NCBI GenBank assembly: GCA_002011125.2 | Contig: MTMF02000008.1 | Span: 62,001-126,000, forward strand | Length of the DNA stretch: 64,000 nt | Reading direction: 5' to 3' | From: Candidatus Hydrothermarchaeum profundi | GTDB taxonomy: Archaea; Hydrothermarchaeota; Hydrothermarchaeia; Hydrothermarchaeales; Hydrothermarchaeaceae | Notes under the pieces: model-generated | Told to the model about the DNA's origin: nothing | Seen by the model: the letters and a program-made list of their open reading frames with translations, nothing else | The model's database searches: none | In this document: positions 13,590 to 36,803 of the stretch, in pieces | How positions within the stretch are numbered: position 1 is the first letter of the stretch | Layout: each line of letters opens with the position of its first letter | Program-made: the position numbers and the translations under genes

Positions 13590-14093
13590 ATGTTCGTTGG
13601 TGAGTATACTCCTATACCGCGAGCAGCCGCAATTGAGATGTTAAAGGAATCAGGGATCAAGGAGGGGGATACACTCTATATGCTGAGCTGTGGAGATGGG
13701 GATCTGCTAATAATGGCGGCAAGAAGATTTGGAGTAAGATGTGTTGGTATTGAACGTAAAAAGGTCTTAACTGACGATGCATTTGAGAAGGTGAAAAAGA
13801 GCGGGTTGGAGGATAGAATCACAATACTCAACGATAACTTTCATTTTCCGAGGTTCTGGTCCCATATTGACGATAGAGAAGAAAAACCTTATGCCTTAAG
13901 GAATGCTGATGTTGTAATCTATTACCTAACCCTTCAAGTCCAGGAATTGCTTAGAGATAAATTGGTAAAAGAACTTAGGAAAGGTGCTAGAGTGGCATCC
14001 TATGCATTTAAACTTATGGGATGGGAACCGGTTAAGACAAAAGTTGTGGAAGGCGTTCCATTCTATATTTTTGAGAAAGGAAAAAGCTTCTAG
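13590..14093 (+). CDS. aKMT-like protein lysine methyltransferase, copy 2
   Basis: 167 residues, clearly paralogous to the product of 12544-13038 along its whole length (YTPIPRAAAIEML, VIYYLTLQVQE, RVASYAFKLMGWEPVK). The SAM loop differs: YMLSCGDGD in place of YDLGSGTAN, with the first acidic residue of motif I lost, so cofactor binding or specificity may have shifted. The two genes share a 30-base identical 3' end, suggesting duplication with recent conversion. The stop overlaps the convergent hemG stop by 4 bases. Confidence 0.8.
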   Translation: MFVGEYTPIPRAAAIEMLKESGIKEGDTLYMLSCGDGDLLIMAARRFGVRCVGIERKKVLTDDAFEKVKKSGLEDRITILNDNFHFPRFWSHIDDREEKPYALRNADVVIYYLTLQVQELLRDKLVKELRKGARVASYAFKLMGWEPVKTKVVEGVPFYIFEKGKSF

Positions 14094-15493
14094 CTCAGGT
14101 AACCTACTACTTTCTGTGAGGTTAGGTACGCATCTGCAGTACAATAATTTATACCGACCCCTCTAAATGCATTACCGGTCATAAATAATCCTGGATGTTT
14201 ATTGAGTCGTTTTTCTATTATTTCAAGACGTTTTTTATGTCCTAAGGTGTATTGAGGTATCCCCTTTTCATGTCTAAAAACTTTCGCAAATATAGGCTCC
14301 GCATCTATCCCCATTATTTCCATAAGCTCTCCCTTAGCGATGTTAATCAGCTGGTCCTTAGAGAGAAGTGCTAACTCAGGCTGCATTGCTCCCCCGATCA
14401 TAATCCTAAATAAATATTTACCCTCTGGCGCTCTGCCTGGAAATATACTACTGGTCCATAGACATCCTATTATTTTTCGTTTCTCGTTTCTTGCTACCAA
14501 AAATCCAAAACCATCTAGAGGGTGATTAAGCTCTTTACGGTTATATCCAAGGGCAACTACTGATATAGGCACATAGGGTATCTCTAGCAGCTTCTGGGAT
14601 ATCTCTGGGTCTAATTCTTTTATCATTTTGCTTGTTGTGTAAGCGGGTGTTGCTGTTATGATTATATCTGCCTCCAAGGCATCATTTCCCTCTAGCTCGG
14701 CGATATATTTGGGTTTTTTATCATCTATTCTACTGATCTTTTCAACCCTTTTGCCTTTGATTATATCTCCCTCAATTTTCTCTGCAAGAGTATCTATAAG
14801 GGTCTGTATTCCACCTTTGAAGGAAGTTAGTCTGCCCCCTGGACCAGCGGTAGCTTTCATTTTTATTCCCGTTTTCTTTGCCTGTTTCATACGCTTTATC
14901 ATCCCTCTTATAAGGCTGCCATTTCCCTCCTTTTCCACTTCTAGAAGGAGAGGGAAACAGCTTTCCATACTTAACTTTTCTGCGTCACCTCCGAAGACAC
15001 CGCTAACCATTGGAGCTATTAGTTTGTTAACAGCTTCTTGTCCCATATGCCTTCTTGCAAACTCCGCTATAGTTTCCTCTTCTCCCTCGGGTTTAGGTTT
15101 GGTGAATATCTCCATCGCAACCCTCATTTTACCTTTCAGCGAGAGGAGGTCAGATTTCAAAAAAGCTATTGGTGACTCTGGGAGTTGTTTTAATTTTCCA
15201 TCAGAGTAGATGAACCTTTTTCTCGCAACATCGTTACTAGGTTGTAGCAGGTCGTTTATTCCTAAGGCATCTACTAGTTTTAGTGTGCTGGGCTTATTAT
15301 CAAGAAATCCGTTGGCTCCTACCTCAATGGTATACCCCTTTTCCCGCATCGTTTGAACTTTACCTCCTAATTTTTCAGATGCTTCTATTAGGGTTATGTC
15401 TACGTCGATACCTTTGTCTCTGGCTTTTTCTTGTATATTGAAGGCGGTCGATAATCCAGAGATTCCCCCGCCAACTACAACTACTCTGTTCAT
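14090..15493 (-). CDS. hemG: Protoporphyrinogen/coproporphyrinogen oxidase (HemG/HemY family)
   Basis: 467 residues of the FAD-dependent HemY/CgoX family. FAD-binding VVVGGGISGLSTAF (4-17), IEASEKLGGKVQT, central GGIQTLIDTLAEKI, and terminal GNAFRGVGINYCTADA. The family oxidises protoporphyrinogen IX or, in the coproporphyrin pathway, coproporphyrinogen III; sequence inspection cannot separate these. Last gene of the minus-strand operon ahbD-like / hemE / hemH / hemG, 38 bases after hemH. Confidence 0.88.
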   Translation of the reverse strand: MNRVVVVGGGISGLSTAFNIQEKARDKGIDVDITLIEASEKLGGKVQTMREKGYTIEVGANGFLDNKPSTLKLVDALGINDLLQPSNDVARKRFIYSDGKLKQLPESPIAFLKSDLLSLKGKMRVAMEIFTKPKPEGEEETIAEFARRHMGQEAVNKLIAPMVSGVFGGDAEKLSMESCFPLLLEVEKEGNGSLIRGMIKRMKQAKKTGIKMKATAGPGGRLTSFKGGIQTLIDTLAEKIEGDIIKGKRVEKISRIDDKKPKYIAELEGNDALEADIIITATPAYTTSKMIKELDPEISQKLLEIPYVPISVVALGYNRKELNHPLDGFGFLVARNEKRKIIGCLWTSSIFPGRAPEGKYLFRIMIGGAMQPELALLSKDQLINIAKGELMEIMGIDAEPIFAKVFRHEKGIPQYTLGHKKRLEIIEKRLNKHPGLFMTGNAFRGVGINYCTADAYLTSQKVVGYLS

Positions 15494-15531
15494 AAAAATC
15501 CATTAGAATTTAAATGAGAGCAAATATAAAA

Positions 15532-16485
15532 TCATTGTGTATTTGCCTTTACAATTTCTGTTAGTGCAAGAACGAATTCAGGATTATCGTTAAGTGACTG
15601 TGTTCTCCTGAGAGTCACTCCTAACTTCTGTGCATACTTTTTAAGCTTGATATCTATATCATAGAGGGTTTCCAAATGGTCGGAAACAAAACTGATAGGC
15701 ACTACTAAAATATTTTTAATATCCTTCTCGCTTAATGTTTTAATAACGTCCTCTGTTTTAGGTCCTAGCCATTTAATTGGTCCAGATTGACTTTGGAATC
15801 CAAGACTCCATTTAATACCGTCTAGTTGTCTTTCTACTCCTTTTATCGTAGCCATTATCTCTGATAAGTAAGGATCTCCTTCTTCTATTACTTTCTGAGG
15901 TAGGGAATGAGCGCTAAATAAAACATGAACTTCTTTTTCTTCAAATTCTGAGAGTCCTCTTCTAATACTGTTTGCCAAGGCGGTTAGATAACCCGGATGA
16001 TCATACCACCTGTCTATAACTTTTACGCTAATTTTTGGATTTATTTTCTCAATTGCAATATTCAGTTTTTTAACGCATGTGCCAGTTGTAGTTCTAGAAT
16101 ACTGTGGGAAAAGAGGTAAAGCCAGAATATCTTTTATTCCTGTTTTAACTACGCTTTCAACGGCTTCTTCTATAGTAGGATGCCAATAGCGCATTCCAAC
16201 AAATACTTCAAAATCTCTCCCAAGCTCATTTTTAAGAGCCGCAGCTTGCCTCAAGGTTATATCTACAATCGGGCTTTTACCGCCTATTTTCTCGTACCTT
16301 TCCCTAACCTTTCTCGCCCGAAACTTAGATATGAGCTTCGCTGTAGGTTTCTGGAAAGGAAGTCTTATGATATCCCTGTCCGAGAAAAGATTATAAAGGA
16401 AAGGTTCAATGGAGGATATCGAGTCGGGACCTCCTAAATTCATCATGATTATTGCTTTTTTCTCGGTAGTCATCGTATGCTCCAC
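15532..16485 (-). CDS. hemH: Ferrochelatase
   Basis: 317 residues. Begins with MMNLGGPDS after a short lead-in, then LYNLFSDRDIIRLP, GGKSPI, a VGMRYWHPTIEEA strand, SAHSLPQKVIEEGDPY with the catalytic His, and SFVSDHLETLYDID with the second conserved His and Glu. Inserts Fe(II) into proto- or coproporphyrin. No Cys cluster ligands are visible at the C-terminus. The start overlaps hemE by 16 bases. A start at the next ATG would lose only three residues. Confidence 0.9.
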   Translation of the reverse strand: MEHTMTTEKKAIIMMNLGGPDSISSIEPFLYNLFSDRDIIRLPFQKPTAKLISKFRARKVRERYEKIGGKSPIVDITLRQAAALKNELGRDFEVFVGMRYWHPTIEEAVESVVKTGIKDILALPLFPQYSRTTTGTCVKKLNIAIEKINPKISVKVIDRWYDHPGYLTALANSIRRGLSEFEEKEVHVLFSAHSLPQKVIEEGDPYLSEIMATIKGVERQLDGIKWSLGFQSQSGPIKWLGPKTEDVIKTLSEKDIKNILVVPISFVSDHLETLYDIDIKLKKYAQKLGVTLRRTQSLNDNPEFVLALTEIVKANTQ

Positions 16486-17498
16486 TTTTTTACGAATTTC
16501 ACCATGGAAATTACATTTTCTACAGGTGTTTGTGGTAAGATACCATGCCCTAAGTTAAATATGTGTCCAGGCCTATTTTCAGCTCTATACAAGATATCCC
16601 TAACTCTCTCCTTTATCAAAGGTTTAGTGGTTAATAATATCGCTGGATCAAGATTTCCTTGTATTCCCACATTATATCCTATTCTTTTCCAAGCCTCGTC
16701 TAGGTTAATCCTCCAGTCAATACCTATGACATCTCCCCCAGATTCTCTCATAAGCTCTAAGAGGGTTGAAGCTCCTGTAGCAAAATATATTATAGGGACC
16801 TTGTTTTTAAGAGACTTTATTACCTTCTTCGTAAATGGCAGTACATATCGCTCATAATCTGTAGGGGAGAGGCATCCTACCCATGAATCGAATAGTTGCA
16901 AGGCATGTACTCCAGAGTCGATCTGATAATTCAAATATTTAACAATAGTATCTGATAGTTTATTCATTAATTTATTGTAGGTGTTTGTGTCTTTCCACAT
17001 CATAACTTTCAGATTTTCATAGTTTCTGCTTCCTTCACCTTCAACCATATAACTCGCTAACGTGAAAGGAGCTCCAGAAAACCCTATTAGTGGAACTCTT
17101 TCTTCTAAATGCTTCAAAGCGAGTTTTATGCTCTCCTCTACGAATGGGATATCTTCTTCTGGTTCTGGAATCTTCAATGATTCTACCTCCCTAGAGTTCC
17201 TTACAGGGTTCAGGATGACAGGGCCAATTGTTTCTTGGAACTCTATTTTAATTCCCATAGCTTCGATAGGGATTAGTATATCTGAAAACAAAATTGCAGC
17301 ATCTACTTGCAGCTTATCAACCGGCTGGATAGTTATCTTTGCGGCAACCTTAGGATTTTTACACATTTCGAGAAAAGAATATTTTTCTCTTATCTCTTGA
17401 TACTCTTCCATATATCTGCCCGCTTGACGCATAAGCCAAACAGGGGTTCTTGGGGTTTTCTCAAGGTTACATGCTTTTAGAAAAAGGTCATTTTCCAA
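16470..17498 (-). CDS. hemE: Uroporphyrinogen decarboxylase
   Basis: 342 residues, normal for UroD. Signature TPVWLMRQAGRYMEEY near 18-33, substrate-binding AILFSDILIPIEAMG, GFSGAPFTLASYMVEG, LFDSWVGCLSP and NLGHGILPQTP at the C-terminal end, including the conserved His and Arg. Converts uroporphyrinogen III to coproporphyrinogen III. It lies 74 bases after the radical SAM gene and overlaps hemH. Confidence 0.94.
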   Translation of the reverse strand: MENDLFLKACNLEKTPRTPVWLMRQAGRYMEEYQEIREKYSFLEMCKNPKVAAKITIQPVDKLQVDAAILFSDILIPIEAMGIKIEFQETIGPVILNPVRNSREVESLKIPEPEEDIPFVEESIKLALKHLEERVPLIGFSGAPFTLASYMVEGEGSRNYENLKVMMWKDTNTYNKLMNKLSDTIVKYLNYQIDSGVHALQLFDSWVGCLSPTDYERYVLPFTKKVIKSLKNKVPIIYFATGASTLLELMRESGGDVIGIDWRINLDEAWKRIGYNVGIQGNLDPAILLTTKPLIKERVRDILYRAENRPGHIFNLGHGILPQTPVENVISMVKFVKKWSIR

Positions 17499-17572
17499 AG
17501 TTTTCTCTCCTTTTATTTCAATATGACTCTAAATTCTTTGATATACCTGAGAGATATTTTCTATTTAAGTTT

Positions 17573-18640
17573 CTACAAGTTTTTTTCTTTTACTATCCTA
17601 ATAGGGTTATATGTGCAATACGGCTCTTCTGCGAGATAATCTCCATGAACAGCATAGGCTCTTGCTCGGCAACCCCCACAGACCATTAAATATTCGCACT
17701 CCCCGCATTTTCCTTTATATATTTTAAAATTTCTAAGGTTTCTAAGTAATTGAGAATTCTCCCATATCTCTTTAAAAGATTGTTCTTTTATGTTTCCTGC
17801 ATTTTCCGGGAAGTAAGAGCAAGGGTGAACATTACCTTTGTGATCAATGAAGGCTATTAATTGTCCTGCAACACAACCTTTATTGCCTCCCGTAGAGAAG
17901 CTTAGATTCCTACGTTTAAACTCTCTGCCCTCTTTTTTTGCTAGTTGCCTAAAGACCCTATAGTACTGTGGAGCACAAGTTGGCCTGACTAATATTTCAT
18001 CCTCCTCTTTTTCCATAGTATAGTGCCACTTCAAAATTTCTTCATAATCTTCTCTGGAAATTAGTTCCTCCATAATCTCTTTTCCTCTGCCAGTGGGAAC
18101 TATCATAAACATGTACCAAGCGGTTGCGCCAAGTTTCTTTGCAAGCTTATAAACATTGGGTATATCTGCTTGGTTTCTCTTAGTAAATGAGGAATTTATT
18201 ATAAAGGGTATACTATGTTTCTTGAGTAATCTTGCAGCATTGATCGTACCTTTGAATGCTCCTTTTTGCCTCCTAAAATTATCATGAATTTCTTCCTTAG
18301 AACCGTCGAGGCTGAGTGCAACGATTTTAATACCTGAGGCCTTCATTTTTTCGCATATTTCATCGGTCACTAAGGTGCCATTAGTTGCAAGGCACATCCT
18401 TAGACCTTTACTCGTACCATAGCTAGCTATGTCGAATACATCTTCCCTTAAAAGAGGCTCACCGCCTGATAGCACTATGACCGGGTCATAGTATTTAGAG
18501 ATATCATCGAGAAGTCTTTTTGCTTCTGTGGTAGAAGGTCCATTTTCTTCGCTCAAACTAGCTGATGCTCTACAATGAATGCAATTAAGATTACATCGGC
18601 CAGTTAGCTCCCACGCTATCCATTTGGGTTCAAAATCCAT
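17573..18640 (-). CDS. ahbD: AhbD-like radical SAM/SPASM haem synthase
   Basis: 355 residues. Radical SAM motif CNLNCIHC (17-24), GGEP (near 60), [19 protein letters not shown], the RPTCAPQ motif seen in AhbC/AhbD/NirJ proteins, and a C-terminal SPASM-like set [18 protein letters not shown] followed by [10 protein letters not shown]. AhbD oxidatively decarboxylates Fe-coproporphyrin III to haem b. With hemE, hemH and hemG directly downstream, that reaction would complete a pathway. Alternatives are AhbC/NirJ or an anaerobic coproporphyrinogen oxidase role. The family is sure, the exact reaction less so. Confidence 0.8.
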
Positions 18641-31780: not shown

Positions 31781-32980
31781 ATGAACATGTGTATATTTTT
31801 TATAGACCCTTCATTTTCTGGTATTAGTGGAGATATGCTCCTTGGTGCTCTAATCGATTTAGGGGGAGATCTTAAAAAATTCCAAGCGATTATAGAAGCG
31901 GTAAAAAAGGAGGAAGGAGCGAAGTTTTCTGTAAAAGTGAACAAAGTTAGAAAGAAGGGAATAACCGCTACCGATGTAAGCGTGGAATCTAGGGCGAGGT
32001 GTGATGATCTAGTTAGCGCAATAAAGGCTCTTCCGCTAGTAGAAGCTGAAAAGAATTTTAGTCTACAAGTCGCTAAGACTCTCATAGACGCCGAATCTAA
32101 GGTCCATGGAGTCTCTGGTAGGGAAATTCGCCTACATGAACTCGGTAGCATTGATACACTGGTCGATATTGTGGGTACATCGGTACTGGCAAACAGCGTG
32201 GGGATGTTATCCTCTGATGTAGAGGTATACTCCTCGCATGTTCTTGTCGGCAAAGGTAAAGTTGTTACTGAGGAAGGATTAATGCCGGTTCCGCCTCCTG
32301 CAGTACTTGAGATTCTTAGAGAATATTCTATACCCTTCCGTCTTTCTACTACCGAGGGAGAACTAGCTACCCCTACAGGTGTTTCACTATTATCTCACCT
32401 AGCTACAAGCTTTGAAAATATTCCAATTATTAGACCGGAAGTAATAGGAATTGGTGCTGGAAAAGCTAATTTGGATTTCCCGAATATTCTTAGGATAGTT
32501 AAAGGTTCAAAATTCGAAAAACTTCGAAAAGAGGAGATAAGGGTTCTAGAAACAAGTTTAGATGATGTTACGGGTGAAGTACTAGGCTATACTATCGGAA
32601 AACTCTATGACTCCGGGGCATTGGATGTTCAAGCCATACCTACTGTTACAAAGAAGAACAGACCCGGGTACATATTGAAGGTAATTTGCAAACCTGAAAA
32701 TGAAGTTAATCTAGCTGAGCTGGTGATGAAGGAAACTGGTAGTTTAGGGGTAAGAACCGGCTGCGCTCAAATGAGGTTCATTTTAGATAGAGAAATAAAA
32801 ACGGTTAAGGTTAAAATCTCAAACGATGTGGGTGAGGCGAGGGTGAAGATCTCTCGAAACCGTTATGGCGAAGTTGTGAACATCAAGCCAGAATATGAGG
32901 ATGTAAGGAAAATAGCAGAGAAAACAAAGATGCCTTTAAAAGACATCATAAAAGCTATTGAAAGAGAAGTTAATCTCTGA
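31781..32980 (+). CDS. larC: LarC, nickel-pincer cofactor nickel insertase
   Basis: 399 residues. N-terminal FIDPSFSGISGDMLLGALIDLGG, RLHELGSIDTLVDIVG, the strand VGKGKVVTEEGLMPVPPPAV, then GELATPTG and the C-terminal metal-binding portion ETSLDDVTGEVLGY ... KKNRPGYILKVIC. LarC inserts Ni into the pyridinium bis-thiocarboxylate cofactor of lactate-racemase-type enzymes, consuming CTP. LarC1 and LarC2 are one uninterrupted frame here, without the programmed frameshift known from Lactobacillus. Convergent with larB, with 11 bases of overlap. Confidence 0.88.
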   Translation: MNMCIFFIDPSFSGISGDMLLGALIDLGGDLKKFQAIIEAVKKEEGAKFSVKVNKVRKKGITATDVSVESRARCDDLVSAIKALPLVEAEKNFSLQVAKTLIDAESKVHGVSGREIRLHELGSIDTLVDIVGTSVLANSVGMLSSDVEVYSSHVLVGKGKVVTEEGLMPVPPPAVLEILREYSIPFRLSTTEGELATPTGVSLLSHLATSFENIPIIRPEVIGIGAGKANLDFPNILRIVKGSKFEKLRKEEIRVLETSLDDVTGEVLGYTIGKLYDSGALDVQAIPTVTKKNRPGYILKVICKPENEVNLAELVMKETGSLGVRTGCAQMRFILDREIKTVKVKISNDVGEARVKISRNRYGEVVNIKPEYEDVRKIAEKTKMPLKDIIKAIEREVNL

Positions 32981-33749
32981 ATTTTGCAGCCCTATTAGCT
33001 ATTAGCGAGGCCGCAATACCTGCTCCAAACCCATTATCTATGTTTACGGCAACTAATCCTGGAGAGCAACTTTGAAGTATAGAAAAGAGGGCAGATTTGC
33101 CTTTTCCGCCGATACCATACCCTGTAGAAGTAGGCAGACCGATAACTGGAATATCCACGAGGCCAGCGACAACTGAGGGTAGCGCTCCTTCCATGCCCGC
33201 GGCTACTATTACTACGTCTACGTCGTTTTTTATGATATCTTCAATAGCAGGTATAAGCCTATGAAGACCCGCTACCCCCACATCATAGTGCACATACACC
33301 TCACATCCCATTTCTTGAGAAATAACCCGTGCTTCTTCGGCTCTTTTAATATCGCTAGTACCTGCGCACAATATAGCGACTTTTCCTCCAGTTTTAGTGA
33401 CTTGGAATTCTTTCTTTTTTATTATGAGTATTCCGGCTTTATCAAAAGATTCGACATGCAATCCTTTTATGTTCCTTTTTAATGATTTAGCTCTTTCAGA
33501 GTTTAGTCTAGTTACAATACATCTACCTTTCTCATTAACCAGCTCTCTTACTATCTCCAATATCTCGTCATCAGATTTTCCCTCGCCGAATACCACTTCT
33601 GGAGCGCCGGTTCTATAATCTCTATGGACATCTATTATCCCTATACTGCCAATTGTTTTCATGCTAAAAAGCTTTATTTCTTTCTCTGCTTCATCTACGG
33701 ATAACTTCCCATTCTTGAAATCTTCTAGGACCTTTTTTAGAGTTCCCAT
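32970..33749 (-). CDS. larB: LarB, pyridinium-3,5-biscarboxylic acid mononucleotide synthase
   Basis: 259 residues. N-terminal helical region (about 1-70), then an AIR-carboxylase-like (PurE) domain: KVAILCAGTSDIKRAEEA, EVYVHYDVGVAGLHRLI, VVIVAAGMEGALPSVVAGLV, PVIGLPTSTGYG and NIDNGFGAG. It carboxylates nicotinate adenine dinucleotide in Ni-pincer synthesis. Convergent with larC. The sulfur-transferring larE and the racemase larA are not in the window. Confidence 0.9.
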   Translation of the reverse strand: MGTLKKVLEDFKNGKLSVDEAEKEIKLFSMKTIGSIGIIDVHRDYRTGAPEVVFGEGKSDDEILEIVRELVNEKGRCIVTRLNSERAKSLKRNIKGLHVESFDKAGILIIKKKEFQVTKTGGKVAILCAGTSDIKRAEEARVISQEMGCEVYVHYDVGVAGLHRLIPAIEDIIKNDVDVVIVAAGMEGALPSVVAGLVDIPVIGLPTSTGYGIGGKGKSALFSILQSCSPGLVAVNIDNGFGAGIAASLIANRAAKFRD

Positions 33750-33916: not shown

Positions 33917-34342
33917 CTATCTACCTAGGGCTGTCTTGAGATCCATGGCGTGCTCCTGTTCCATGGCTAGTATTTCTCTCAGTTTTTGGGCTAAAGCCAA
34001 TTCTTTCAACTCTTCTGCTTGCCCGATTCTTTCTTTGTATCGCCTAATCGCGTCTTCTTCTCCTTCAAGGTCTTGCTCTAGCATTTCTACATTGTCTTTA
34101 GAACTCTTGGCTGGATACACTTCAGTTGCTGGAAAGCCTCCTAGGTAGTCTATCTGCTCCGCTAATATTAAGGCGTGTTGGAGTTCTTCTTGAGCATGAA
34201 TTTTTATTTCCTTTATAATATCTCCATACTGGGCACCTGTAAGAACCCCGCTATGCTGTATATATTGTACCATTGCTGTATATTCCCAGGATAGGTCCTT
34301 ATTTAACAAATCTATTAGTTCTTCTTTCGTTATGGTCATCAT
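33917..34342 (-). CDS. Bacterioferritin/ferritin-like di-iron protein
   Basis: 141 residues forming a four-helix ferritin-like fold. Di-iron ligands are recognisable in LLNKDLSWEYTAMVQYIQH (Glu), EEIKIHAQEELQHALILAEQ (Glu, Glu-x-x-His), LEQDLEGEEDAIRRYK (Glu) and REILAMEQEHAMDLK (Glu-x-x-His). It stores or detoxifies iron or protects against peroxide. Strong ribosome binding site GGAGGT. Divergent from the peptide/maturase cluster at 34423, sharing an intergenic region of 80 bases. Confidence 0.85.
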   Translation of the reverse strand: MMTITKEELIDLLNKDLSWEYTAMVQYIQHSGVLTGAQYGDIIKEIKIHAQEELQHALILAEQIDYLGGFPATEVYPAKSSKDNVEMLEQDLEGEEDAIRRYKERIGQAEELKELALAQKLREILAMEQEHAMDLKTALGR

Positions 34343-34375: not shown

Positions 34376-34383
34376 TTTAAATA
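34376..34383 (+). promoter_or_regulatory. TATA box for the peptide / radical SAM cluster
   Basis: TTTAAATA preceded by GGGAATAA. Transcription should start about 34404-34408, immediately before the ribosome binding site GGGGAGGTG (34406-34414), giving a very short leader before the 22-codon gene. The same 80-base interval also serves the divergent ferritin-like gene. Confidence 0.5.
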
Positions 34384-34422
34384 CGTTTATGCATGCTATT
34401 AAAATGGGGAGGTGAAAACAGG

Positions 34423-34491
34423 ATGGAAATCAAAAAAATCGAAAAAGAGAACAGATATTCAACTTGTAAATGTCATAAGAGTTGTATGTAA
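34423..34491 (+). CDS. 22-residue Cys-rich peptide, candidate modified-peptide (RiPP) precursor
   Basis: A 23-codon frame with a near-perfect ribosome binding site (GGGGAGGTG, 8 bases before the ATG) and a TATA box. The peptide has a charged N-terminal half (residues 1-12, EIKKIEKENRY) and a C-terminal STCKCHKSCM with Cys15, Cys17, His18 and Cys21. This is the leader-plus-core arrangement of small peptides processed by radical SAM/SPASM enzymes. Its stop is directly followed by the ATG of the next gene, then the SPASM gene. Thioether formation is a natural guess, metal binding by CxCHxxC another. I know of no described family with this sequence. Confidence 0.68.
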   Translation: MEIKKIEKENRYSTCKCHKSCM

Positions 34492-34632
34492 ATGAATATA
34501 GATGAAGAGCTTAGAAAACGTATATGCAAAAAATGCGATTTCTATAAAGAGGGTGAGCGGTTAGAGTGTGGTGCATACAAAATAAGTAAGAAGCTTGTTG
34601 AAAATGGTAAAATTTCGTTGGAAGATCTTTAA
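34492..34632 (+). CDS. 46-residue four-Cys protein of the peptide cluster
   Basis: Frame directly abutting the 22-codon gene (TAA then ATG) and overlapping the radical SAM start by one base (TAATG). The protein reads MNIDEELRKRICKKCDFYK ... RLECGAYKISKKL ... KISLEDL. Cys pattern is CxxC plus a single C (Cys12, Cys15, Cys26). I count three Cys in the translated frame, so it could hold a zinc or iron-sulfur site with an external ligand. A role as a recognition or electron-donor protein for the maturase is inferred. Confidence 0.65.
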   Translation: MNIDEELRKRICKKCDFYKEGERLECGAYKISKKLVENGKISLEDL

Positions 34633-35795
34633 TGTTTCCTAAATTAAAAGGATGCGCTCTTAAGAAGGCTGAAGGACTCTTCATATATGACTTTATTCGT
34701 GATGAACTGTATGAGGTAGATGAGGAAGCTTTTGATTTTTTGAAGTATTGTACAGGGAAAAACAAGCTTGAAGAAATCCCAAACTCTGATGAAGGAAAAG
34801 AAGTTTTGAAGTTTGCTTTAAGTGAAGGTCTTGTTGAAGATGATTTTGACGCAAATGCTCCAGAGCAGTACTCGGTCAAAAATAATCCTGCTCCTTCTTT
34901 AAGGTATCTACAGCTTCATATAACTGAAAGGTGCAATCTAAACTGCAAGCATTGTTACCTTGGATCAAAAGGAATGCGGAGTTTAAATTTTGAAACAGCT
35001 ACTAAAGCTATAAGAGAGTTTGGAGAAATCGGATGGAAACTATTGGTTACAGGAGGAGAACCTCTACTGTATGAGAGATTTTGGGATATCCTTTCCTATG
35101 CTAGCAAATTTCCGATTAGGGTTGAGGTCCTCAGCAACGGGACTCTTATCACAGATGAGATCGCTGAGAGAATGTCCAAGCATGTCCACTCTATACAGAT
35201 TAGCTTGGATGGAATGAAAGAAGGGCATGAAGCCTTACGGGGTTTGGGCTCTTTTGAAAAGACTATTAGCGGTATAAAAGCTGCTAAAAAATATATTTCT
35301 GTATCAATAGCCACGATGATACATGCAAAGAATATTAATGAATTTGATGACCTCAAGGAGTTGGTAGAGGACCTAGAAGCTGCTGAGTGGATGCTTGATG
35401 TACCCTCGCTAAAGGGGAATTTATTGGAGAATAGAGGTTTGATACCTAAGAAATCTGACGCTGTAAGAATCTATAAAAATTATGGATATGGAGGGGGAAG
35501 TCATTCTGGAGATGAAGATTTTTCATGTGGCTCACATTTGTGTTCGATAGATGTAGATGGAAATGTTACGAAATGTGGTTTTTTCTCAAGTAGCGTTGGA
35601 AAAATAGGAACTAAGCCTTTGCTAAAATGCTGGCATGAAATTGTTGAAAAGTACCTTCCAAAGCTAAACTCGTTGGAGTGCAAGAATTGCGAATACCTAT
35701 ATGAGTGTAGAGGGGGGTGCAGGTATAGAGCGGCTTTAGATAAAAATTTCACTGCGAAGGATCTCTTCATGTGCGATATTTATCTTAATAAATAA
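34632..35795 (+). CDS. Radical SAM/SPASM peptide maturase with PqqD-like N-terminus
   Basis: 387 residues. The first 80 residues (FPKLKGCALKKAEGLFIYD, then DEEAFDFLKYCTG and VLKFALSEGLVEDD) look like a PqqD-type peptide-recognition element. The radical SAM core follows: ITERCNLNCKHCYLGSKG (near 98-115), LLVTGGEPLLY, SNGTLI, QISLDGMKEGHEALRG. The C-terminal SPASM domain has CSIDVDGNVTKCGFF and CKNCEYLYECRGGCRYRA and a final Cys in FMCDIY, enough for auxiliary clusters. Enzymes with this layout install thioether or C-C links in ribosomal peptides. The upstream Cys-rich peptide is its obvious candidate substrate. Confidence 0.82.
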   Translation: MFPKLKGCALKKAEGLFIYDFIRDELYEVDEEAFDFLKYCTGKNKLEEIPNSDEGKEVLKFALSEGLVEDDFDANAPEQYSVKNNPAPSLRYLQLHITERCNLNCKHCYLGSKGMRSLNFETATKAIREFGEIGWKLLVTGGEPLLYERFWDILSYASKFPIRVEVLSNGTLITDEIAERMSKHVHSIQISLDGMKEGHEALRGLGSFEKTISGIKAAKKYISVSIATMIHAKNINEFDDLKELVEDLEAAEWMLDVPSLKGNLLENRGLIPKKSDAVRIYKNYGYGGGSHSGDEDFSCGSHLCSIDVDGNVTKCGFFSSSVGKIGTKPLLKCWHEIVEKYLPKLNSLECKNCEYLYECRGGCRYRAALDKNFTAKDLFMCDIYLNK

Positions 35796-35849: not shown

Positions 35850-36803
35850 ATGCTGAAAGAAATTTATGATATAGCAATAATTGGAAGCGGCCCAGTTGGA
35901 CTAGCCTCTGCCATGTATGCAGGAAGACTGGACATGAAAACTGTGGTCTTTGGGGACCTTTTAGGGGGTGCAATCACTTTAACGGATATTGTGGAAAATT
36001 ATCCAGGATTTAAAAGTATATCAGGCTCTGAATTGGCAGATAGGTTAATAGAGCATGCCAAGGAGTACAACGCCGAGTTTATAGAGGGAATGGTTGAAAG
36101 AGTTGAGCCATATGAAGATGTTTATCGCCTTATCTCTAGAGGAGATAAATATTTCTCTAAAACGGTTCTTTTTGCGACAGGTACAAAACATAGGAAGCTT
36201 GAAGTCCCTGGTTCTGAAAAATTTGAAAGAAGAGGGGTGCATTATTGCGCCTTATGCGATGGTCCACTCTATAAGGACAAAAAAGTTGGCGTGGTTGGAG
36301 GTAGTGATTCAGCCGCTAAGGAAGCGTTACTTTTAGAAAAATATGCTAACGAGGTCTATATAATCTACCGGGGAGAAAAGATACATCCAGAGCCAGTAAA
36401 TGCTAAAAGGATTGAAAAAAGTTCAAAGATCAAGATAATAACAAAGACAAACATCATAGGACTGGAGGGAGGAGATACTCTGAGCAGAATATTGCTCGAT
36501 AGGGAATATAATGGGCAAAAGGAACTTGAGCTAGACGGTCTTTTCGTAGCTATCGGTGGGATACCACGCTCAGAGCTTGCTATACCATTAGGCGTGGCAG
36601 TTAATAAGAAAGGCGAAATAAAAATAGATAGAGCTGGAAGAACCAATATCGAAGGAATATTCGCAGCCGGTGATGTTGTAGATTCAGAATTTAAGCAAGC
36701 CATCACAGGTATAGGTGAAGGGGTTGCGGCAGTATATCAGGCTTACCGGTATATTAACGAGAAGGAGTTTGTCTGTACATGCTTGGATGAAGAATACCTC
36801 TAA
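35850..36803 (+). CDS. trxB: Thioredoxin reductase
   Basis: 317 residues. FAD-binding IAIIGSGPVGLASAMYAGRL (near 8-27), VENYPGF, ATGTKHRKLEVPG, redox-active site HYCALCDGPLY (CALC rather than the usual CATC), second dinucleotide motif VGVVGGSDSAAKEALLL and IEGIFAAGDVVD. It reduces thioredoxin-like proteins. It lies 54 bases after the radical SAM gene on the same strand and may supply reducing power or manage thiols for that system; that is inference. Confidence 0.9.
   Translation: MLKEIYDIAIIGSGPVGLASAMYAGRLDMKTVVFGDLLGGAITLTDIVENYPGFKSISGSELADRLIEHAKEYNAEFIEGMVERVEPYEDVYRLISRGDKYFSKTVLFATGTKHRKLEVPGSEKFERRGVHYCALCDGPLYKDKKVGVVGGSDSAAKEALLLEKYANEVYIIYRGEKIHPEPVNAKRIEKSSKIKIITKTNIIGLEGGDTLSRILLDREYNGQKELELDGLFVAIGGIPRSELAIPLGVAVNKKGEIKIDRAGRTNIEGIFAAGDVVDSEFKQAITGIGEGVAAVYQAYRYINEKEFVCTCLDEEYL

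Follow-up and report, generated by a model that had tools for sequence, protein, structure and literature searches.

A Conserved Cysteine-Rich Micropeptide and Co-Occurring Radical SAM Enzyme in Archaea and Bacteria: A Probable Family of RiPP-Like Metal or Redox Peptides

Here, we characterized a three-gene cluster in a 64-kb stretch of DNA (the window), which is contained in an archaeal source assembly of 2.19 Mb. The cluster encodes a 22-residue Cys-rich peptide, a 46-residue Cys protein and a radical SAM/SPASM enzyme. We consider it reasonably likely that this trio is a maturation unit and that its peptides are RiPP-like metal/redox micropeptides matured in trans, forming a new family. An earlier note on this DNA had read the locus as a cluster of a Cys-rich micropeptide with a radical SAM enzyme, a reading that is strongly supported by conservation, co-occurrence and predicted fold.

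Results

Organization of the Locus

The three frames lie on the forward strand and were found as the earlier note had described them, abutment and overlap included. The micropeptide, MEIKKIEKENRYSTCKCHKSCM followed by a stop, occupies positions 34423–34491 (ATG at 34423, TAA at 34489–34491) and joins a leader of the form M-x-I-x-K-x-x-K to the core CKCHKSC. The ATG of the 46-residue protein (34492–34632), in which alignment of homologues delimits a C-x(2,3)-C-x-F-[YF]-...-C-x-[AGS]-[FY] module, contacts the TAA of the micropeptide without a gap, and its own stop overlaps the ATG of the 387-residue radical SAM/SPASM enzyme (34632–35795; Pfam Radical_SAM, 1.7e-23) in a TAATG at 34632. The TATA box and ribosome site said to precede the peptide were both located by sequence, the former as a putative TATA-box-like element, TTTAAATA (34376–34383, forward strand), ~40 nt 5′ of the ATG, and the latter as a strong ribosome-binding site, GGAGGTGA (34408–34415, forward strand). 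The flanking genes also bore out their first description: a ferritin-like gene is divergent from the cluster (33917–34342, reverse strand; Pfam Ferritin, 2.6e-22), and a gene for a TrxB-like (thioredoxin-reductase-like) flavoprotein lies 3′ of the enzyme (35850–36803, forward strand; TIGR01292, 303 bits). Both are given as context, and membership in the system is not implied.

Two other groups of genes in the window deserve mention in their own right. Homologues of LarC (31781–32980, forward strand) and LarB (32970–33749, reverse strand), which belong to nickel pincer cofactor synthesis, are encoded by convergent frames that overlap by a few bases ~0.7 kb from the peptide locus. Farther away, a heme cluster on the reverse strand (14090–18640) places archaeal-type heme genes beside bacterial-type ones; it includes protoporphyrinogen oxidase (TIGR00562, 388 bits), ferrochelatase (TIGR00109, 332 bits), a HemE-like gene recognized by eye, and a radical SAM protein near heme b synthase AhbD (442 bits, cut-off 500).

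Conservation of the Micropeptide

Only two of the ~7,500 stop-to-stop frames in the window end in CxCxxxC at most one residue from the stop, so the tail might by itself be due to chance. Conservation of the 22-codon frame, on which the earlier note had made its reading depend, was found at seven orthologous loci that were located via the enzyme alone and hold the frame upstream of it. Across these loci, codon positions 1 and 2 are far more conserved than position 3; I3, K5, K8, Y12, C17 and C21 are invariant in the enzyme-found archaeal set, while third codon positions vary. The peptides upstream of Hydrothermarchaeota enzyme orthologues comprise MHIEKIKKTTRYGACKCCKSCA, MKISKINKKVLYSCAQCHKGCM, MKIVKKEKKVAYATCKCHKSCM, MRIVKKEKKKGYATCKCHRSCM and LKIFKIKKVQGYGACKCHKSCL, together with near copies.

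A DNA pattern for the tail matched 21 copies in 12 of the 23 genomes of the window's class, and the same pattern reversed matched none in those 23 genomes; the window's own genome holds three copies of the peptide. The loci fetched from all groups contain 87 distinct DNA versions of the peptide, 80 of which stop directly after the last Cys, an outcome that was not selected for, as the stop codon is no part of the tail pattern. The remaining seven are Lokiarchaeal forms with repeated cores. An SD-like stretch lies upstream in 78 of the 87. Conservation and the reversed-pattern controls rule out that the peptide is a chance frame. Neither the peptide nor the 46-residue protein is matched by any Pfam or NCBIfam model. 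The peptide with its stop was not found in 2.9 million viral contigs, and we therefore see no sign of phage carriage.

Taxonomic Distribution

The same peptide (M-x-I-x-K-x-x-K ... CKCxxSC-stop) accompanies enzyme orthologues in Hydrothermarchaeota, Archaeoglobaceae, Asgard archaea, Nitrospirota, Desulfobacterota and Thermoleophilia. The archaeal scope first given to the system was thus too narrow, since bacteria carry it too. Orthologues of the enzyme occur at ~50–56% identity in 11 other genomes of the window's class, the closest named relative of the window's enzyme being that of a Hydrothermarchaeota MAG. They were also found in four Archaeoglobaceae-like genomes, one of which holds peptide, small Cys protein and enzyme together. 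In the capped genome samples of three further groups, true orthologues stand out by a clear score gap: the enzyme is present in 21 of 228 Asgard genomes, 79 of 246 from Nitrospirota and 34 of 345 from Desulfobacterota. Most genomes in the set are MAGs or incomplete assemblies. No enzyme was found on plasmids at 1e-30. A tree of 84 enzymes separates a single archaeal clade (support 0.96), within which each archaeal group stays together, from the bacterial members; judged from these sequences, the split between archaeal and bacterial enzymes looks old rather than the product of recent exchange.

The usual bacterial form of the peptide is MTIKKVxKKxxxTCKCKxSC. The Thermoleophilia peptide, MKIKKTGRRNSSTCKCHSSC, lies downstream of the enzyme and has a GTG start (rendered as M). 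Among Asgard archaea, one peptide reads MKITKVSKKETKAACKCSSDC and a Lokiarchaeota peptide, MKIVKKVKRTSAACKCGDSCISNGCKCGDSCISNTCKCGDSC, has a repeated core. At several Lokiarchaeal loci (L006, L008, L175, L176, L179, L181, L185) the core is present two or three times (CKCGGGC-ISNS-CKCGGGC...), which gives these forms a metallothionein-like look.

Co-occurrence of Peptide and Enzyme

The presence of the peptide follows that of the enzyme. The peptide was found in 57 of 79 Nitrospirota genomes with the enzyme vs. 2 of 167 without it (P = 6e-35), in 13 of 21 vs. 1 of 207 Asgard genomes (P = 5e-15; leaving out G107 and G182, which had chance pattern hits without an open frame) and in 10 of 12 vs. 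2 of 11 genomes of the window's class (P = 0.003). Since genomes within a phylum are related, fewer independent events lie behind these P values than the counts suggest. The reversed-pattern control gave no matches in the window's class or in Nitrospirota and one in Asgard archaea. The peptide pattern was set after family members had been seen, which fixes some positions but has no bearing on how enzyme-bearing genomes compare with the rest. The earlier note would have counted against itself any enzyme homologues lacking a CxCxxxC peptide altogether; most enzyme genomes have one, and in some it sits elsewhere rather than directly upstream. With the patterns used, some genomes have the enzyme and no peptide (e.g., G003, G018 and 22 Nitrospirota), while five, in a set of mostly incomplete assemblies, have a peptide and no enzyme found (G006, G017, G147, G742, G866). 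Several peptides per genome occur at scattered loci, often with one enzyme found. Where peptide and enzyme are adjacent (55 loci), the peptide is downstream in 27, upstream in 22 and divergent in six, a variability that fits a product acting in trans. That the 22-residue peptide is the enzyme's substrate is, in our view, highly probable.

Metallothioneins typically show CKC and CxC patterns, and the presence of such patterns here raises the alternative that the peptide works unmodified as a mini metallothionein or copper chaperone, its link to the enzyme being regulatory or coincidental. A 42-residue Lokiarchaeal form does match plant metallothionein models, if at insignificant levels only (E 0.08 and above). 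Coincidence would not produce so strong a co-occurrence with the enzyme, however; moreover, a conserved leader would be needless in an unmodified peptide, and the enzyme has, by its fold, a peptide-recognition domain. We therefore regard this alternative as very unlikely and favor a modified product.

The Enzyme

The CxxxCxxC cysteines of the radical SAM core (C101, C105, C108) and seven SPASM cysteines (C299, C315, C350, C353, C359, C363, C381) are conserved. An AlphaFold2 model built from 12 sequences (mean pLDDT 87.5) places an ~85-residue, PqqD-like strand-helix domain (about residues 1–85) before the radical SAM core, and the top solved structures retrieved with this model by Foldseek were SkfB, CteB and SuiB, aligned over the full length at 14–21% structural-alignment identity. 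All three are peptide-modifying enzymes, each with a PqqD-like recognition domain. The PqqD-like N-terminus proposed earlier is thus seen in the modeled fold and its structural matches; it is a fold-based assignment, and a Pfam scan of the enzyme gave no PqqD match.

No NCBIfam model reaches its cut-off for the window's enzyme or for its bacterial or Asgard relatives. The best-scoring SPASM families (AhbD, NirJ, ACGX, SynChlorMet, GeoRSP, WgkB) share the radical SAM core but score ~120 bits or less against cut-offs of 400–650, and the StsB, PapB, CcpM, SkfB and AlbA models, where listed, all fall far under theirs. Because no maturase model is reached, we do not class the system with the sactipeptides or ranthipeptides, and its chemistry is drawn from them by analogy only. 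We think it likely that the modification involves the cysteines; a thioether would be a plausible bond type by analogy with SkfB and CteB.

The 46-Residue Cys Protein

The small Cys protein is the commonest neighbor of the enzyme (32 loci). In an alignment of 11 homologues, C12, C15, F17 and C26 are invariant within the consensus C-x(2,3)-C-[DNEK]-F-[YF] ... C-x-[AGS]-[FY], and a profile search found exactly one copy, beside the enzyme, in eight of nine genomes. It was not found by this search in Magnetobacterium, and many Nitrospirota enzymes likewise have no copy beside them. Its gene is upstream of the enzyme in Hydrothermarchaeota, Archaeoglobaceae and bacteria and downstream in Asgard archaea. 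Modeled alone, the protein forms two helices around the Cys region at low confidence (pLDDT 75).

Such constancy, along with three invariant cysteines and a gene that overlaps or contacts that of the enzyme, could mean that the 46-residue protein is the true substrate and the 22-residue peptide an accessory. Yet in one Desulfobacterota locus (L223) the small protein is fused to the N-terminus of the enzyme, which points to a working partner rather than a precursor, and versions with two modules or a cupin-like domain (L227, L261) also suit an adaptor better. Furthermore, the protein is missing from Magnetobacterium and has no leader-plus-core layout; the peptide, by contrast, occurs in multiple copies whose core is invariant. 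We consider a substrate role for the 46-residue protein most improbable and retain the peptide in that role. One of the variants may be recorded separately: at L261:2670–3374, a two-module form runs into a weak cupin-like domain (Pfam Cupin_2, 2.5e-4, below cut-off).

Genomic Context

Nitrospirota copies of the CKCHxSC type that are unlinked to the enzyme sit in copper-export operons with a P-type ATPase (often with a YHS domain), a Met-rich small protein and a YHS-TrxB-like protein. The ATPase lies within 4 kb of 12 of the 14 such peptides, two of which share one operon, and the other two adjoin only the Met-rich protein. Over all loci, a P-type ATPase was found within 4 kb of 14 of 25 unlinked CKCH copies vs. 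3 of 82 of all others (P = 2e-8), a contrast that is slightly conservative because one of the 25 (L222) actually adjoins the enzyme. The three exceptions are CKCC or CKCY forms; no CKCK or CKCG copy among the loci counted is this close to a P-type ATPase, and it is with the enzyme that the CKCKxSC type is found. The TIGR01511 copper-ATPase cut-off is exceeded by four ATPases from Nitrospirota and one from archaea. Names of neighbors beyond the profile-scanned ones were assigned by eye from translations. At one Nitrospirota copper operon, CKCHSSC and CKCHQSC peptides occur together (L303:1914, 3641), in a genome (G866) with no enzyme above threshold.

The window's peptide is of the CKCHxSC type. 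Hydrothermarchaeota orphan copies lie beside CopA (G006, G008, G012), beside CcmF and thioredoxin-like genes (G000, G008), next to CcmE (G013) or near cytochrome c and CcdA-like genes (G010, G012). In the window's genome, two more CKCHKSC peptides, both on the reverse strand, flank an operon of CcmF and thioredoxin-like genes (L139:9083, 12519, equivalent to G000:C9:735080, 738516); neither these two nor the window's peptide adjoins a copper ATPase. Other orphans do not obviously fit a copper role: one in G021 is beside an ATPase gene resembling TIP49 by eye, and in G002 and G011 a CKCHKSC peptide lies immediately 5′ of a trpB-like gene, with a TrxB-like gene close by and no copper gene in view (L140:3901, L141:3914). 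Rubrerythrin-like genes neighbor the enzyme in eight Nitrospirota loci, which recalls the ferritin-like and TrxB-like genes found in the window. YHS-TrxB-like genes are also part of those Nitrospirota copper operons in which CKCHxSC peptides are encoded. A metal or redox role, hinted at earlier, is supported by the recurrent neighbors, namely copper-ATPase operons, genes for cytochrome c maturation and rubrerythrin-like genes. The abundance of c-type cytochromes in Geoglobus and Ferroglobus (PMC4600277) is suggestive only of a link to the peptide system. We give slightly less than an even chance to the proposal that copper, or some other thiophilic metal, is bound by the product.

These positions also bear on a reading of the peptide as a metal-sensing leader that acts in cis (uORF): copper or thiol chemistry on the nascent CKCHxSC would control downstream translation, and the enzyme would act on another target. 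The peptide often precedes the Met-rich protein and ATPase in copper operons (L293, L297, L300), the window's peptide precedes and contacts the 46-residue gene, and CutF and CruR are known Cys-containing, copper-sensing upstream proteins, likewise encoded by small frames in copper operons (PMC9973294). However, the targets of CutF and CruR are the genes that follow them in cis, and CutF is an exported protein, whereas the peptides described here track a radical SAM enzyme from variable positions, being downstream of or divergent from it in 33 of 55 loci rather than always upstream. Their leader motif is conserved as protein, Lokiarchaeal forms carry three core repeats, and one of the copies at L139 comes after CcmF with no same-strand gene beyond it. 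With a variable position and a copy at the end of the CcmF operon, a simple cis-acting leader is unlikely in our view; a product acting in trans remains our preferred reading.

The enzyme's relatives suggest another fate for such a product. PqqE and the mycofactocin maturase emerged as SPASM relatives in the family-model scan, and the invariant Tyr before the core of Hydrothermarchaeal peptides would suit a scaffold from which a small redox cofactor, like PQQ or mycofactocin, is excised after modification. Against this, no peptidase or partner dehydrogenase recurs beside the enzyme, the Tyr is not conserved outside Hydrothermarchaeota, and the system has multiple precursors per genome in metal operons as well as tandem core repeats. 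A cofactor scaffold is thus also an improbable explanation, and the retained, modified peptide is again preferred.

Discussion

Judged from sequence, the system is RiPP-like in layout and hence of a known kind, while no NCBIfam or Pfam family names its enzyme, 46-residue protein or peptide. An encoded precursor with leader and core is conserved across archaea and bacteria; a dedicated modifying enzyme is indicated by the adjacent SPASM enzyme and by co-occurrence at the genome level, and its PqqD-like recognition domain is apparent on fold only. The radical SAM triad and SPASM cysteines expected of a sactipeptide or ranthipeptide maturase are present, whereas a match above cut-off to a curated maturase family is not. 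No description of the system was found in the open-access literature; compared with that literature and with the family libraries, the family itself, its very short, dispersed precursors served by one enzyme, the 46-residue partner and the link to copper operons are apparently undescribed.

Among known systems, the maturases of sactipeptides and ranthipeptides (SkfB, CteB for SCIFF peptides, SuiB) share with this one a SPASM enzyme, an N-terminal recognition domain and a neighboring Cys peptide. Their peptides are usually 40–70 residues long, however, in contrast to ~20 here, and the present system differs further in having several unlinked precursors per genome, no exporter or protease, and a 46-residue Cys partner. 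Copper stress is the setting of bufferins and methanobactin-type RiPPs, which are short, modified Cys peptides made with MNIO (DUF692) enzymes (PMC12452194, PMC13097082). The peptides described here resemble them as short, presumably modified Cys peptides with a copper-operon context, but the enzyme is a radical SAM protein (Pfam Radical_SAM) rather than an MNIO, and the peptides have no signal sequence. No MNIO gene was recognized by eye among the recurring neighbors of the enzyme.

We propose that the basic leader (M-x-I-x-K-x-x-K) would dock onto the enzyme's PqqD-like N-terminal domain, and that the SPASM active site would use radical chemistry to modify the CKC..SC core on or beside its cysteines. 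The 46-residue Cys protein may act as a partner that is obligate or nearly so, probably a small adaptor that binds a metal or cluster, and one enzyme would mature several peptides encoded elsewhere in the genome. Because neither an exporter nor a peptidase recurs beside the system, the product is presumed not to be secreted and would stay inside the cell as a metal or redox ligand. In this scheme, the CKCHxSC form would serve copper handling and cytochrome assembly, and the CKCKxSC form might have a housekeeping metal or oxygen-stress role.

If the peptide is indeed a matured metal peptide, it adds a radical SAM route to metal-handling peptides, and the use of one enzyme for many dispersed precursors would be unusual for RiPPs. 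A ~20-residue product common to Asgard archaea, Archaeoglobales, Nitrospirota and Desulfobacterota is also one that routine annotation is likely to miss. More tentatively, it is quite possible, though somewhat less likely than not, that these peptides constitute a class of intracellular copper (or cytochrome-assembly) peptides unknown until now, in which one radical SAM maturase serves ~20-residue precursors in scattered, metal-regulated operons of archaea, Asgard archaea included, and bacteria, with CKCH, CKCK and repeated CKCG cores tuned to different metals or partners. Such a class would be a radical SAM counterpart of the methanobactins and bufferins.
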